Source of the DNA: a virus
IMG/VR virus record: IMGVR_UViG_3300034072_000966
Span: 1 to 42,861 of that record
Reading direction: 5' to 3' (one strand)
DNA: 42,861 bases
Shown: positions 13,298-27,985 of the stretch, in pieces
How positions within the stretch are numbered: position 1 is the first letter of the stretch
Layout: each line of letters begins with the position of its first letter
Notes under the pieces: model-generated
What the model was told of the DNA's origin: nothing
Databases searched by the model: none
What the model saw: only the letters and a program-made list of their open reading frames with translations
Translations under genes and position numbers: made by a program

Positions 13298-13959
13298 CTA
13301 TTCCTTTGCCGCCGCCACTTTCCCGCCGTGCGCCGCAACAAAGCGGGCAAGGTCGGGACTGGCTTCCTTGGGCTGCTTGCCTGCGTCGGGGTCGTGAGCC
13401 TCGTTGTGAGCCTCAAGCGCTTCAAGATAATCGGACAGGTCGGTCTGCCGCCAATCGAGCCCCAGCTGCCCGCAGTTCGCGATCAGCTGGCCTTTGCGGA
13501 ATGGCTCTCGCTGGGCGTCTCGCCCGTCACTTCCTCGGGCTTTTTTTTTGAGGAGAGCTGAACCCCATGGATGGCGGCGTGAAGGACGCGCCATGCCTGC
13601 ACTACGCCCTCGGCAAAGGGGCGGGCGGGGTAGACGTAGGCATCGACAAGTTGCCGCGCCATGTTCGGGCCAACCTCGATCTCCTGACCATCCACCAAGC
13701 CGCCGCCCCCGCCCCACAGCGCAAGCCGCAGGGTCTCCCGCACATCGGCGACGGTGGCGGAACCTCCGCCAAGGAACAGAAAATTGGGCTCAAGCTCGCC
13801 CTCTGCCGGATCGCCGACGCCGATAGCGCCACGCAGCCGCTCCTCGATCACTAGGATCGAGGAGCCGGTTTTGCGCTCCAGTTCCACCACCTGCGGCAGC
13901 GGAAGCCAGAAGCGATACTCGCCATCGGCGAAGGCAAAGGTGACGGCGGTGTCAGCCAT
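13298..13959 (-). CDS. Tail assembly chaperone, -1 frameshift long form (GT-like)
   Basis: Slipping back one base in the A-run yields a 220-residue product. The first part is the G-like protein; the extension reads KKKARGSDGRDAQREPFRK and continues to a TAG at 13298. The extension contains LGLDWRQTDLSDYLEALEAH and ends AAHGGKVAAAKE. It has no start signal of its own and ends nine bases before the tape measure gene, just like the T part of lambda GT. T domains recruit the tail tube protein onto the chaperone-coated tape measure. The frame data and gene order are direct; the frameshift frequency is unknown. Confidence 0.8.
13483..13959 (-). CDS. Tail assembly chaperone, short form (G-like, GTA TAC family)
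   Basis: The 158-residue protein matches the GTA-type tail assembly chaperone pattern. The N-terminus is MADTAVTFAFADGEYRF, followed by PLPQVVELERKTGSSILVIEERL and DVRETLRLALWGGG. It ends in the zero frame after SSKKKPEEVTG. These chaperones coat the tape measure protein during tail assembly. A run of nine A bases on the coding strand (13549-13541) near its end is a -1 slippery sequence, giving the longer product listed separately. The pair corresponds to lambda G and GT. Confidence 0.85.
   Translation of the reverse strand: MADTAVTFAFADGEYRFWLPLPQVVELERKTGSSILVIEERLRGAIGVGDPAEGELEPNFLFLGGGSATVADVRETLRLALWGGGGGLVDGQEIEVGPNMARQLVDAYVYPARPFAEGVVQAWRVLHAAIHGVQLSSKKKPEEVTGETPSESHSAKAS
13541..13549 (-). 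other. Programmed -1 ribosomal frameshift site (A9 run)
   Basis: On the coding strand the sequence is TCA-AAA-AAA-AAG-CCC in the zero frame. It contains both A-AAA-AAA and A-AAA-AAG heptamers; the latter is the efficient slippery heptamer of E. coli dnaX. Slippage by -1 opens the T-like extension to 13298. No downstream pseudoknot was worked out. Confidence 0.8.
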
Positions 13960-16492: not shown

Positions 16493-16536
16493 GTCAGTTC
16501 AATGCCTGCCTAAGCGTGAGGTGTTCCCGCCGCTCA

Positions 16537-22301: not shown

Positions 22302-22348
22302 GGTGCCCGCGATAGGACGCGGGCGCGAGGGGAATTACCGCCGTGAGG

Positions 22349-23511: not shown

Positions 23512-25425
23512 CTAGGCCTCCTCGACCTTGGCCTTCCAATCCTCATCGATCGGCGCAAACACTTCCGGCCCGAACCGCAGTTCGCCCGCATAAGGGACGA
23601 TGCTGGCTAGGTCGATATCGTCTGCGCTGTAGCTAAGCGTCACGTGGGGCAGGTATTCGGGATAATCGTGGCTGGCACCCTCGCGCACCATCTGCTCATG
23701 GCGCGATTGCAGCGACCAGCTCGCAAACTGCAGCACCACAGCGCCGCCGTCGAAGCGCTCGAGCGCGCGCGGACCGCCGGGCTTGATGACAAGGCCGCCA
23801 TTGTCCTCGCCCGTCCACGTCTCTCCCATCTTCATGGGATCGACCGGGCGCTTCGAGTAGAGCACAGTGACGTGCATGTCCTCGGCGGGCAGGGTGGTCT
23901 CGAAGCCATTGGCCTTCGCCCATGCTATCAGATCCGCCCCGTTCAGCAGTTTGCGGCTGACGTAGAGCGGGCGCGGCATGGCATCAGCCGCAGCAAACGG
24001 ATCACCCCCTTCCTCGATTGCGCCGCCGTTACCTGGCTGCGTCTCCCCGTCCGGGTCGTCATCGCCATCATCGCCGCCCTGTTCGATCCCGAACCGCTCG
24101 TCGTCAGGCATGGCGAGCAGCGCGGCCTCAAGCGCGGGCAGATAGCCGCGTTCGATCATCAGCGATTGCACGCCCTCGGCCAAGGCGCGCTCGGGTACGG
24201 CACCGGTCATTTGCAGCTTCTCGACCGCTTCCATCTCGGTCTTGAAAATCGTCGCGCGTTCGGACTCTGAAGGCGTATCGAGCGGATCGAAGTCGTATGA
24301 CATGACGCCCAGCGGCTGACCGGCAGCGGCAAGCAAGTGCGGGTCGAGCCGGTCGAGCAGCGGAGCGAGTTCGATGGTCTGGCGGGCGCGAACGGCCTTG
24401 TTCCAGTCCTTCTGCTGGCTCTCACCGCTGCTGTTCATGCCCTCGGGCGCGCGCCCCAGCAGGCGGGTTGCCGGAATGTCGGAGATCGCAGCGGCCCACT
24501 CGCCATAGGCGTTGAGCACGTCCTTGACCCCGGCGAAGCTGTACTCGGCATCGCTGATCTGCTCGCCGCCCTTGCCGTCCTGTGCGGAACCGGCATCGAA
24601 GATCGTGGCATTGTGGATGCTCTCGGCAGCAGCAAGGATCGAGAGGCGCTTCATGACAGCGGCCTCGCCATCGCCGGTTGAGGCAAGGCTGATCAGGTCG
24701 GGAATGCCGATGCGAAGCAGGCGAGCCTTGTGGATCAGCGCGGCGAACGACTGGCGGGCGAGATCGCTGTCCTGCACAGCATCGAGCACTTGCTGCACGC
24801 GGCTCTCGCCCCAGAACTGGTCGTGACCCGTGATAGACGGCAGGAGCATCGCCGCACTGGTGTCGGCGCGGAACGGGATCACGCGAGACGGATGCAAGCG
24901 GACGTTTCCGCCCGACGAGGTCATCTCCCACATCTCGGGCTCACCATAGCCGGGGCTGGAGGCGTCGAGGTTCAATTGCCCAAACGAGAGGTGCCAGCGG
25001 GAAACGACATGCAGGAACGCAAGCGGCGCTGTCGGATCGGCAGGGGTGTCAGGATCGCCGGGCAAGCCCATGATGAAGGCCCCGCCGCCCAGACCGCGCA
25101 GGATTTCGGCCTGCATGACCTTGCGGCGCACATCGAAGCGCTTCTCGGCATCGAACACGGCGGCAATCTGGGTATCGTCGCCGCCCATCCATGTCCGCCA
25201 CTCGCGCACCATGTCCTCGGCGGGGATGCGGACGACTTTCCGCATCAGGCCCGATCCGGAATAGGCGGCGGCGATCTCATGCTGCGAGAGGATTCGGGCG
25301 GTATAGGTATTGTGGGCGCGCGGATCGCGGCGCGTGCCGGAGCCGGTCAGGGCATTCGTGAGCCGATCGGAGATGTAGCGGACGACACCCATGTGAGCGG
25401 CATGGCGGGGAAGGGGTTGAGGCAT
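23512..25425 (-). CDS. Portal protein with C-terminal Acb1-like 2H phosphoesterase domain
   Basis: Residues 1 to about 440 form a DUF1073-type portal, the ring through which DNA enters the head (YSGSGLMRKVVRIPAEDMVR, WGESRVQQVLDAVQDSD, PEGMNSSGESQQKDWNK). An acidic Gly/Asp linker (446-475) leads to a separate domain at about 484-637. It holds two HxT motifs, MHVTVLYS (H518, T520) and PHVTLSYS (H594, T596), the paired catalytic motif of 2H phosphoesterases. T4 Acb1, a 2H enzyme, destroys cyclic nucleotide signals of CBASS immunity, and Acb1-like domains are known at the end of DUF1073 portals. Anti-CBASS activity of this copy is inferred. The ATG at 25425 is one base from a GGCGGGAA motif; an internal ATG at 25392 is the alternative. 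Confidence 0.85.
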   Translation of the reverse strand: MPQPLPRHAAHMGVVRYISDRLTNALTGSGTRRDPRAHNTYTARILSQHEIAAAYSGSGLMRKVVRIPAEDMVREWRTWMGGDDTQIAAVFDAEKRFDVRRKVMQAEILRGLGGGAFIMGLPGDPDTPADPTAPLAFLHVVSRWHLSFGQLNLDASSPGYGEPEMWEMTSSGGNVRLHPSRVIPFRADTSAAMLLPSITGHDQFWGESRVQQVLDAVQDSDLARQSFAALIHKARLLRIGIPDLISLASTGDGEAAVMKRLSILAAAESIHNATIFDAGSAQDGKGGEQISDAEYSFAGVKDVLNAYGEWAAAISDIPATRLLGRAPEGMNSSGESQQKDWNKAVRARQTIELAPLLDRLDPHLLAAAGQPLGVMSYDFDPLDTPSESERATIFKTEMEAVEKLQMTGAVPERALAEGVQSLMIERGYLPALEAALLAMPDDERFGIEQGGDDGDDDPDGETQPGNGGAIEEGGDPFAAADAMPRPLYVSRKLLNGADLIAWAKANGFETTLPAEDMHVTVLYSKRPVDPMKMGETWTGEDNGGLVIKPGGPRALERFDGGAVVLQFASWSLQSRHEQMVREGASHDYPEYLPHVTLSYSADDIDLASIVPYAGELRFGPEVFAPIDEDWKAKVEEA

Positions 25426-25455
25426 TCCCGCCGCTACGCAGTGAAGAGGAAAGAC

Positions 25456-25536
25456 GTTGCGGGCTGGATTTGAACCAGCAGGCCCGTTTCAGGCAGGCAG
25501 TCGAAACCACCATCGCGCTCCAAGCGCCACCGCAAC
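25456..25536 (-). ncRNA. tRNA-like RNA A (perfect acceptor stem and T-arm)
   Basis: On the minus strand the ends GTTGCGG and CCGCAAC form a perfect 7-bp acceptor-like stem. GCTGG-TTCAAAT-CCAGC is a canonical T-arm at the right distance. GCGC-TTGGA-GCGC can form a D-like arm after TG (positions 8-9). The anticodon region is irregular: GGTGG/CTGCC closes only a 6-base TTTCGA loop, or GTTTC/GAAAC closes a 12-base loop. The 81-base length leaves room for a long variable arm. No CCA is encoded. It is tRNA-derived, but it is unclear whether it is charged, degenerate or repurposed. The amino acid is not assigned. Confidence 0.55.
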
Positions 25537-25543
25537 GTCATGA

Positions 25544-25666
25544 TGCTGCGGCGGGCCAGAAATGGGGATTCGAACCCCTTCGATCGCTCTGGTCTGGCGG
25601 CCAGTCACCGGTCCTCCGGAAGACGGGTTTCGATGCCCGCTCTGCTTTACCGTTTCCGCCGCAGCA
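25544..25666 (-). ncRNA. tRNA-like RNA B (11-bp closing stem, canonical T-arm)
   Basis: TGCTGCGGCGG (25554-25544 region) pairs perfectly with CCGCCGCAGCA (25656-25666) to close 123 bases. Inside, on the minus strand, is a canonical T-arm, GGGG-TTCGAAT-CCCC read as GGGGTTCGAATCCCC. There is also a GCGGG/CCCGT stem around CATCGAAA, and a 6-bp GCCAGA/TCTGGC stem that encloses the T-arm. The order of arms does not fit a normal tRNA; the segment between anticodon-like stem and T-arm is about 43 bases. It may be a decayed or rearranged tRNA, or a structured RNA built from tRNA parts. Confidence 0.45.
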
Positions 25667-25668
25667 TT

Positions 25669-25753
25669 TGCGAGAGTGCCCGAGCGCTTACAGTGTTGCG
25701 GGCTAGCCTCACCCTTCAACAGAGCACTGCGGCTTTCACGGGTCACTCTCGCA
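25669..25753. ncRNA. Structured RNA C (10-bp inverted repeat, tRNA-sized)
   Basis: TGCGAGAGTG and CACTCTCGCA are a perfect 10-bp inverted repeat 85 bases apart end to end. Inside are nested complementary pieces: CCG/CGG, CAGTG/CACTG, GTTG/CAAC and GGG/CCC, so the whole can fold as one long interrupted hairpin. The plus strand starts like a class II tRNA (GCGAGAG-TG-CCCGAGCG), but no T-loop consensus is present on either strand. It follows RNA B after two bases, and its inner GTTGCGGGCT repeats the start of RNA A. The rest of 25426-25780 has no gene. Confidence 0.4.
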
Positions 25754-25780
25754 TCCGCCATACCACACCCCGCGCCCGCG

Positions 25781-27112
25781 TCAAAGCTTTGAGAGGTCGT
25801 AGGAGCGCTGCGATCCAAGGGCGAGTTCGGTCAGCGCCCAGACAAGCGCATCGGCCCTGTCAGGCGAGCCCTCGCCGACATAGCCGCCAGCGGTGAAATT
25901 GCACATCTGGTCCTCAAGGTCCGGGAATGTGCCGACGTGGTGCACCTTCCCTTGCTCGTAGAGGGCGGAAACAGGTTCGGCACGCACGGCCTTGCCCCGG
26001 CTCGCCTTGACCGCACTGTAAGGCACCTTTTTATCGGCGGTCTGCACCGTGAAGCGCACCATGTCGCCGCCGAAGTTGGCCTCGCCCACGACGCGATCGG
26101 CGTCGTGGCGGTGATAGGTTTCAACAGTGCGCCGCCCCCACCCCTCGGGAGAAAGCTGGCAAGATGCGTCTTCAAGCACGTAGGCATGGCCGTCGATGCC
26201 AAGGCCTGCGGCGATAATGCCGATATCGTCGCCCCCGCCGTCGCCCTTTGTCCCGGACGGATCGACCGCTACCACGATGCGGCGCAAGTCCGGGTGCTGG
26301 GTGACGCGCAGGCTATCGATGCCGGGCATCTTGCGCCCATCCGGCGCATCGCGATCTTCGAGCGACCAGAGCGCGCCGTTGACCTCGCTCGCCCACTCGC
26401 CCGCCTCGAATCGCAGGCGCTTGGCGGCGGACATGCTGGCGAGGACATCGAAGTATTCGGCCGGCAGGTTCTCGGCATTGTCTGCCGGGTTGACCTTCAT
26501 CTCGGCGTAATCGTCTGGATTGGGCAGAGCCTCTTTCGTGCCGGGCTTCAGCTTGGCCCGGAATAGCTGATAGGACCAGTGCAGCTTCGATGGGGGATTG
26601 CAGTCGAAGTAGGCTTTGAGCGGCAGATGCGTGCGCCCCGTGGCCTTGGCGATCTCGGGAGCCAGCTCGCACTTCTGCGCGAGGCGGGACATGGCCGTTT
26701 CGATAGAGGCCCACGGAATCTGGCTGCTCTCGTTGAAGTAGAGGGTGACATACTCGGCCCCCAGGATCTTCTCGACGCGCTCTTTGTCATCGAGCCCGGC
26801 GATCCAGATTTGCGAGCCGTTGGGCAGCTCGACGTAGAAGTCGGTCTTGTCGAACCGGACGCGCAGGGCAGGAAAGCAGAGCTTGAGCACCTTGGGCAGC
26901 GTGTCGGCCCAGATGCTGGTCTTGGCGTGATTGAAGCGGAAGCGGAAAATCGCGTGGCGGCTGTTCGGCGCGTTGATGGCCCGCTGCACGATCGCGCGGC
27001 AGAGCAGAAACGTCTTGCCCGATCGGGAGCCGCCACGCAGCATGATGTTACGGGCCGGGCCGCCGAGAAGGCGGTTGGCCTCGCGCTGTTTGGGGGTGAG
27101 GGTAGCGGTCAC
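25781..27112 (-). CDS. Terminase large subunit
   Basis: The 443-residue motor protein starts at GTG 27112, coupled to the stop of the previous gene at 27114; the longer frame to 27259 would overlap that gene. The ATPase part has Walker A GGSRSGKT (about 26-33) and Walker B VTLYFNE. The nuclease part has VVAVDPSGTKGDGG and GEANFGGDMV, and ends with DRADALVWAL, the RNase H-like acidic residues. It cuts and pumps DNA into the head through the portal, which is encoded downstream beyond the tRNA-like block. Terminase type (cos or pac) cannot be told from sequence alone. Confidence 0.9.
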   Translation of the reverse strand: MTATLTPKQREANRLLGGPARNIMLRGGSRSGKTFLLCRAIVQRAINAPNSRHAIFRFRFNHAKTSIWADTLPKVLKLCFPALRVRFDKTDFYVELPNGSQIWIAGLDDKERVEKILGAEYVTLYFNESSQIPWASIETAMSRLAQKCELAPEIAKATGRTHLPLKAYFDCNPPSKLHWSYQLFRAKLKPGTKEALPNPDDYAEMKVNPADNAENLPAEYFDVLASMSAAKRLRFEAGEWASEVNGALWSLEDRDAPDGRKMPGIDSLRVTQHPDLRRIVVAVDPSGTKGDGGGDDIGIIAAGLGIDGHAYVLEDASCQLSPEGWGRRTVETYHRHDADRVVGEANFGGDMVRFTVQTADKKVPYSAVKASRGKAVRAEPVSALYEQGKVHHVGTFPDLEDQMCNFTAGGYVGEGSPDRADALVWALTELALGSQRSYDLSKL

Positions 27113-27113
27113 G

Positions 27114-27476
27114 TCAGGCAGCGCGGATTGCGCGGCACTTCTCAACGTTGCCCAGCATCCGGCGTCCGCGTTCGGCGCGCTGCGGGTCACCCGAGGCAAT
27201 GTCGAGGCGCGCAGTGTGCTCGACGGGGCCATACTTGTCCGTGAGGATTGCGCCAGCACCGATGGCCATAGCCTTCTTGCTCATGGCGATATCGAAGTGC
27301 ACCCATGATGCATTGCGATGCTTCCCGAACGAGAGCGTCGGATGGCCCTGTATCCACTTGCGCTGCACGCCGATCCGGTCGACCATGTCGAGCAGTTCAT
27401 CGAGCGTGTCGGCCCACAGATGGCACATGACCATGTTGCCGAACCGATGCCGAACGTCATCCACATAAACGCTCAC
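27114..27476 (-). CDS. DUF4031-like protein
   Basis: The 120-residue product begins [20 protein letters not shown], followed by [20 protein letters not shown] and [16 protein letters not shown], the conserved blocks of DUF4031. The function of that family is unknown. It lies between the small and large terminase genes and overlaps the small terminase stop by four bases, so it may be made during packaging. The extended C-terminus ([21 protein letters not shown]) is basic. Confidence 0.8.
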
Positions 27477-27985
27477 AGCGCTGCATCCTCCGGCAGGACG
27501 TTGAGCGTCATCTCGCCGCTGTGCTCGACCTTGTCTTTAAACGCCTGCACCGCAACATGCTTGCCGAGCAGCTCAAGGTTCTTGACCTTGTCCGGCCATT
27601 TGATCTTCTTGAGAATGCCGACCATCTCACGCTCCTCGCCGCGCCCCTCGAACATCTCGGCGAGGTCGAAGCCGGACAAGTAGCGCCGCCAAACCGCAGG
27701 CCATTCAGAGAGAGGCTTGAGCGCCATGTCCTCGCCCATGATGTCGAGCACGTCCATCTGGTCGATCTCGACGAGGCGGTTGAGCACGTAATCGGCGGTA
27801 ATCTCGGTGCGCTGCGAGCGGGCTTGCATGGCGGCGGCAATGGCGTTTGCGATTTCAAGTTTTTTCAAGAGCTGCTCGCCCTGCTGACCGGCGGTGCGCT
27901 CGCTATATCCCGCCCGAATGGCCGCTTGGGTCGCATTCAGGTCGATCAGGTATTCCCGGACAAAGGCTTCCTGTTTAGGGGTCAT
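27473..27985 (-). CDS. Terminase small subunit (Terminase_2 type)
   Basis: The 170-residue protein begins [20 protein letters not shown] followed by [16 protein letters not shown], the N-terminal DNA-binding helix-turn-helix of Terminase_2 proteins. The rest is helical ([20 protein letters not shown]) and should oligomerise. It recognises the packaging site and loads the large subunit. The packaging site often lies near this gene. GGCGGGAA lies 36 bases upstream of its ATG. Confidence 0.85.

Follow-up and report, generated by a model that had tools for sequence, protein, structure and literature searches.

A tandem array of three closed-stem units, one of them tRNA-like, as a candidate small noncoding-RNA cassette between the terminase and portal genes of a prophage

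The junction between the terminase large subunit gene (terL) and the portal gene in the virus record IMGVR_UViG_3300034072_000966, analyzed here as a single window of 42,861 bases, contains a block of three structured units on the minus strand, which is the strand of the late genes, and the structure of this block exceeds what is expected by chance. The interpretation that we prefer, at roughly even confidence, is that the block represents a phage-borne moron, a small noncoding-RNA cassette that lies as an insertion between terL and the portal start region. The core idea of the initial annotation, an array of structured, non-coding and partly tRNA-like elements at this position, is borne out by the analysis, and the contrary outcomes, namely all three units being ordinary tRNAs or a complete lack of conservation, are not observed.

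The genes surrounding the block are arranged on the minus strand in the order terS (27473-27985), a DUF4031 gene located between terS and terL (27114-27476), terL (25781..27259, with matches to Terminase_6C, Terminase_3 and Terminase_6N), the block, the portal gene (23512..25425, Phage_portal_3, E 1.2e-88) and a gene for a Mu F-like head protein. The likely portal start assigned by homology is the ATG at 25392 (MGVVRY) rather than 25425, as related portal proteins begin at the equivalent of MGVVRY. One end of the window carries a tRNA-Val gene adjoined by an integrase-like gene, the latter being identified by eye.

Read along the minus strand, the terL stop is followed by a leader, unit A (25753-25669), 1 nt, unit B (25667-25543), 3 nt and unit C (25539-25453), after which a short pyrimidine-rich tail, TTTCCTCTTC, precedes the motif GCGGCGGGAA (25434-25425), with the portal ATG 32 nt later. 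The closing stems of A, B and C comprise 10, 12 and 10 bp, respectively, and all are perfect. As in the initial annotation, three inverted repeats are present in the stated order, and the T-loops TTCAAAT (unit C) and TTCGAAT (unit B) are found, both on the minus strand; the stems likewise exist but are longer than claimed, and the gaps given as 7 and 2 bases are in fact 3 and 1 nt. Stems of at least 10 bp with a span of 60-135 nt occur 12 times in the window against a mean of 6.9 per shuffle, so that a lone stem is unremarkable. A head-to-tail chain of three such stems is found in none of 300 dinucleotide shuffles of the window, and a chain of two is found in 2 of 300. Additionally, the folding z-scores of the units on the minus strand relative to shuffles are -3.75 (A), -2.4 (B) and -3.79 (C). 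Integron attC sites were considered as an identity for the block and ruled out, as the orientation of the core sites is opposite.

Among the three units, tRNA architecture is present in unit C only (25453..25539, minus strand), where ARAGORN, the predicted fold and a strict geometric scan reveal a tRNA-like cloverleaf with an extra variable arm and a 10-bp terminal stem, GACGTTGCGG/CCGCAACGTC. A 7-bp acceptor is formed by the pairing of CCGCAAC with GTTGCGG, and the T-arm GCTGGTTCAAATCCAGC (TTCAAAT loop, minus strand) stacks directly on CCGCAAC, which corresponds to the tRNA arrangement of a 7-bp acceptor followed directly by a T-arm with a TTCRANY loop. U8, a D-like arm with GG and a long variable arm are also present; CCA is not encoded. 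The folding energy is -43.0 kcal/mol. In the strict scan, this combination of acceptor and T-arm is not found outside ARAGORN tRNAs in 1.6 Mb of related loci, and it occurs in 0 of 300 window shuffles. The 7-nt anticodon loop of a tRNA, in which U33 and an interpretable anticodon are expected, is not found in unit C: a UUCG tetraloop replaces the anticodon loop in the minimum free energy (MFE) fold, and ARAGORN reports a tRNA-??? with a 6-nt loop and the anticodon 'tc', which is not usable. As judged from its sequence, unit C cannot decode. Its scores in Rfam are weak and below the gathering threshold, both for tRNA-Sec, the top match (21.8 bits versus a threshold of 47), and for mascRNA; a selenocysteine tRNA was rejected on the basis of this score and the lack of a UCA anticodon in the loop.

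Unit B (25543..25667, minus strand) is a unit of 125 nt, closed by its 12-bp stem, that contains a canonical T-arm hairpin, GGGGTTCGAATCCCC, with the TTCGAAT loop on the minus strand. This hairpin is separated from the closing stem by other sequence, and ARAGORN, the fold and the strict scan agree that unit B is not a tRNA cloverleaf, the T-arm being unstacked on the acceptor. The initial description of three tRNA-like RNAs therefore holds for unit C and fails for B, by its unstacked T-arm, and for A, which contains no T-arm. Homologues of B and C were not found by searching IMG/VR with exact pieces of either unit or by searching the related loci, including locus L153.

Unit A (25669..25753, minus strand) consists of a single long imperfect hairpin closed by a 10-bp stem, TGCGAGAGTG/CACTCTCGCA, with an MFE of -41.9 kcal/mol, and its z-score on the minus strand compares with -2.24 on the plus strand. 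It is not tRNA-like, as neither a T-arm nor a cloverleaf with a T-arm stacked on an acceptor is found. A homologue of unit A is located at the same junction in L153 (L153:2750-2831), with 90.4% identity over 83 nt (E about 1e-24). The terL protein of L153 is 96% identical to that of the window, whereas fourfold-degenerate sites of the two terL genes are 66% identical overall and 60% identical in the part of terL closest to the junction. The conservation of unit A greatly exceeds that of this nearby unselected sequence, and the comparison of the two sequences thus shows the unit to be under constraint; kept far better than untranslated DNA should be, it probably has a function. Within the closing stem, the two sequences agree at 51 of the 52 columns that are paired and at 23 of the 30 that are unpaired (Fisher p = 0.003), a result that is supportive rather than independent because the fold itself comes from this pair of sequences. 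The sole altered pair changes from U-A to U-G and remains paired only in the minus-strand RNA. The two sequences thereby provide one one-sided change with the pair kept and no double-sided change; compensatory covariation is absent because A has a single homologue and B and C have none. Two different unit A patterns retrieved no IMG/VR contig other than that of L153, and conservation does not extend to the whole array. The fold of the whole L153 junction is no better than that of shuffles (z -0.87).

The initial annotation had stated that the block contains no open reading frame, which is not confirmed: several mechanical ORFs cross it, and one of these, on the minus strand, spans 109 codons when counted from a TTG or 90 codons from the ATG at 25761. 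The 90-codon frame is open over 25489-25761, directly after terL, and this position would suit a small protein gene for which the RNA folding is incidental. However, the block ORFs match no Pfam or PHROG family, and the alignment of unit A with its L153 homologue contains three single-base indels (-1, -1 and +1), which argue against a conserved reading frame and against translation. A protein-coding origin of the block is accordingly regarded as highly improbable.

The junction was examined in relatives of both flanking genes: those of terL came from IMG/VR and GTDB genomes, and those of the portal gene from IMG/VR and sphingomonad genomes. In these relatives, terL and the portal gene usually overlap or lie some tens of bases apart. 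The block is missing from locus L156, from the same contig as L083, in which the final 220 nt of terL are 96% identical to those of the window. The existence of near relatives without the block, in which terL and the portal gene abut, indicates that the block is an inserted cassette, and the presence of A in L153, where B and C were not found, suggests that the units are exchanged separately. Other cargo is present at the same junction: a tRNA-Met(CAT) gene (L145:1055-1128, L205:2555-2628 and L219:2519-2594) together with a small ORF in three loci, ORFs in L003, L046 and L074, and longer inserts in the latter three loci and in L098. By this comparison of gene layouts, the terL-portal junction is a cargo slot.

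The tRNA genes inserted at this junction in L145, L205 and L219, and the acceptor, T-arm and GG D-loop retained by unit C, would be consistent with a block of three former phage tRNA genes that have degenerated, as the initial annotation proposed among other origins. Decay is nevertheless a poor fit, as the terminal stems are perfect and, at 10-12 bp, longer than that of a tRNA, which is the opposite of decay, and unit A is constrained despite having no tRNA feature; we consider this origin quite unlikely. An element acting at the DNA level, such as a packaging site (pac/cos), recombination hairpins or the marks of cassette insertion, would also be compatible with inverted repeats, which could extrude as DNA, and with the adjoining terminase genes. 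The packaging role suggested in the initial annotation is unsupported because the block is absent from phages with closely similar terminases, namely L156 and other terL relatives, and is thus not generally needed for packaging. Additionally, folding favors the minus-strand RNA for units A and C, and the sole changed pair is kept only as an RNA U-G, all of which makes a DNA-level element very unlikely.

In the favored interpretation of the block as an RNA cassette, its transcription may start within a leader with promoter-like features (25754..25784, minus strand), which overlaps the stop of terL and consists of TTGACG, 16 nt (CGGGCGCGGGGTGTGG), TATGGC and 3 nt preceding unit A. The leader is shared with locus L163: in 1.6 Mb of loci, GGGGTGTNGTA occurs in the window and L163 only, and in both it directly adjoins the terL stop on its upstream side and a closed-stem unit on its downstream side, which in L163 comprises 120 nt with an 11-bp perfect stem. 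The whole L163 junction folds no better than shuffles (z -0.2). By eye, the window, L153 and L163 share a TTGA-type and a TA-type hexamer that are 16-17 nt apart and end 3-6 nt before the closing stem. The leader pattern has nine matches in IMG/VR, among which only the contig of L163 (L237) adjoins this kind of portal gene; some of the unrelated matches are flanked by promoter-like hexamers, as judged by eye. The leader agrees with the sigma-70 consensus at 8 of 12 bases, a weak match, and was not reported at the threshold of a promoter consensus scan; in light of both results, a promoter of the block's own is offered as a suggestion. The leader can also pair over a long range with the region of the portal start, as observed by eye and in one fold, but C-rich portal starts are general in these phages.

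The motif downstream of the block, GCGGCGGGAA (25425..25434, minus strand; consensus TGACGGCGGTAAC), was defined from sites in related loci and ends 32 nt before the portal ATG. Further copies in the window are located at 22335-22344, 16524-16533 and 13320-13329, all on the minus strand. In related loci, ACGGCGGTAA has 85 distinct exact sites, all on the sense strand (the three minus-strand matches sit in loci with minus-strand genes), and most are 31-34 nt before an ATG; for the portal genes of this group, the commonest distance is 32-33 nt. The motif is followed near the start codon by a CATATCC-like block, as seen by eye, and resembles a phage-specific promoter, which would serve late mRNAs with a short leader or none. 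Directly before the motif, L169, L205 and L219 each show, by eye, a hairpin and T-run resembling a terminator, which suggests that portal transcription starts at the motif. If so, the block would lie outside the portal mRNA rather than in its 5' UTR, and would either end the terminase mRNA or be an RNA gene of its own. As a separate observation, L192, L207 and L196 carry noncoding inserts of approximately 180 nt upstream of the portal gene and before the late-gene motif, with repeated GGCTATTT/GGCTAATT words that are possibly operator repeats.

The first of these two placements corresponds to a cis-acting 3' UTR or insulator at the 3' end of the terminase mRNA, which would block read-through or exonucleases, or would be cleaved by RNase P, RNase Z or RNase III and thereby uncouple terL from the portal gene. 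The products of these two genes are needed in different amounts, the block lies between them with the portal motif directly downstream, the stems are very stable, and that of unit C is followed by the pyrimidine-rich tail. However, no intrinsic terminator was found by a scan of the minus strand, near relatives with abutting terL and portal genes manage without the block, and the unpaired interior of A is also conserved (23 of the 30 columns noted above), beyond the needs of a mere stem. A cis-acting function is retained as a tentative possibility.

In the preferred alternative, the block would be transcribed on the late strand from the leader and/or by read-through from terL, the latter being equally possible, to yield an RNA of three independently closed structured units that are 1-3 nt apart. 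Host RNase P and RNase Z may recognize at least unit C and separate the units, as for the dimeric pre-tRNAs of phage T4, and the released stable small RNAs would act in trans. Unit C may serve as a processing signal, a stabilizer or a tRNA mimic, and a putative decoy role for it is possible. The T4 tRNAPro-tRNASer pre-tRNA dimers have 3-nt spacers, encode no CCA and are substrates of RNase P (PMC11143913); the block resembles them in its tandem units, few-nt spacers and lack of an encoded CCA. It also resembles phage tRNAs in that tRNA genes fill the same junction in related phages, and differs from them in that only unit C is tRNA-shaped, without an anticodon loop, and A and B are not tRNAs. 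M3 RNA and C4 RNA are small phage RNAs other than tRNAs that are matured by RNase P (PMC11143913); in contrast, the block has no Rfam match at the gathering threshold, and its processing by RNase P is a proposal.

None of 4227 Rfam families matches the block at the gathering threshold, and the evalue mode applied to the window, L163 and L153 gives no credible family. C4 antisense RNA, pRNA, ROOL and GOLLD were each rejected, as they have no covariance-model match at the gathering threshold and are absent from the evalue-mode list. ROOL and GOLLD are linked to phages and tRNA genes. They are described as ornate structured noncoding RNAs of unknown role (PMC12286853), whereas the block is about 300 nt long, is built of separately closed units and has no Rfam match. 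The array is not found in annotated phages by blastn, and plasmids yield only chance matches of 29-38 nt. Searches around Blastomonas natatoria (L092) found neither the array DNA in 398 genomes of its family, nor a unit A covariance-model match in 398 genomes of its order, nor the unit A DNA in 385 genomes of its class, absences that are weak as these searches had no positive control. Nothing recognizable as the block element was found in the open-access literature.

A broader proposal, which we regard as unlikely at present, is that the block represents a new class of phage small RNA. Members of this class would be tandem closed-stem cassettes that alphaproteobacterial phages swap one unit at a time at the terL-portal junction, and would include a tRNA mimic lacking an anticodon, which would titrate host enzymes directed at tRNA, such as anticodon nucleases or tRNA modification enzymes.

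Few small RNAs of phages fall outside the tRNA and antisense classes, and most of these are unexplained. A constrained, inserted RNA cassette beside the portal gene, with an anticodon-stripped tRNA-like unit, would make phage tRNA mimicry testable, and would mark the terL-portal junction as a slot for RNA cargo as well as protein cargo.

tRNA genes are also observed on the other side of terL in this comparison. In L006, L008, L016 and L037, tRNA-Met(CAT) genes are located upstream of terL, and the D-arm of several tRNA-Met(CAT) genes of the related phages presumably resembles that of initiator tRNA. In Lentisphaerota loci, tRNA genes are likewise found upstream of terL (L112:2315-2390, L113:2210-2381 and L115:2348-2520). 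Their occurrence near terL in phages of unrelated hosts suggests that tRNA cargo near terminase genes is widespread.

Additionally, an Acb1-like 2H phosphoesterase domain forms the C-terminal part of the portal protein. Residues 486-632 of the protein match the anti-CBASS protein Acb1 (E 1.3e-40) and contain two HVT motifs at residues 518 and 594, and the portal may thus be a structural protein fused to a putative counter-defence enzyme.
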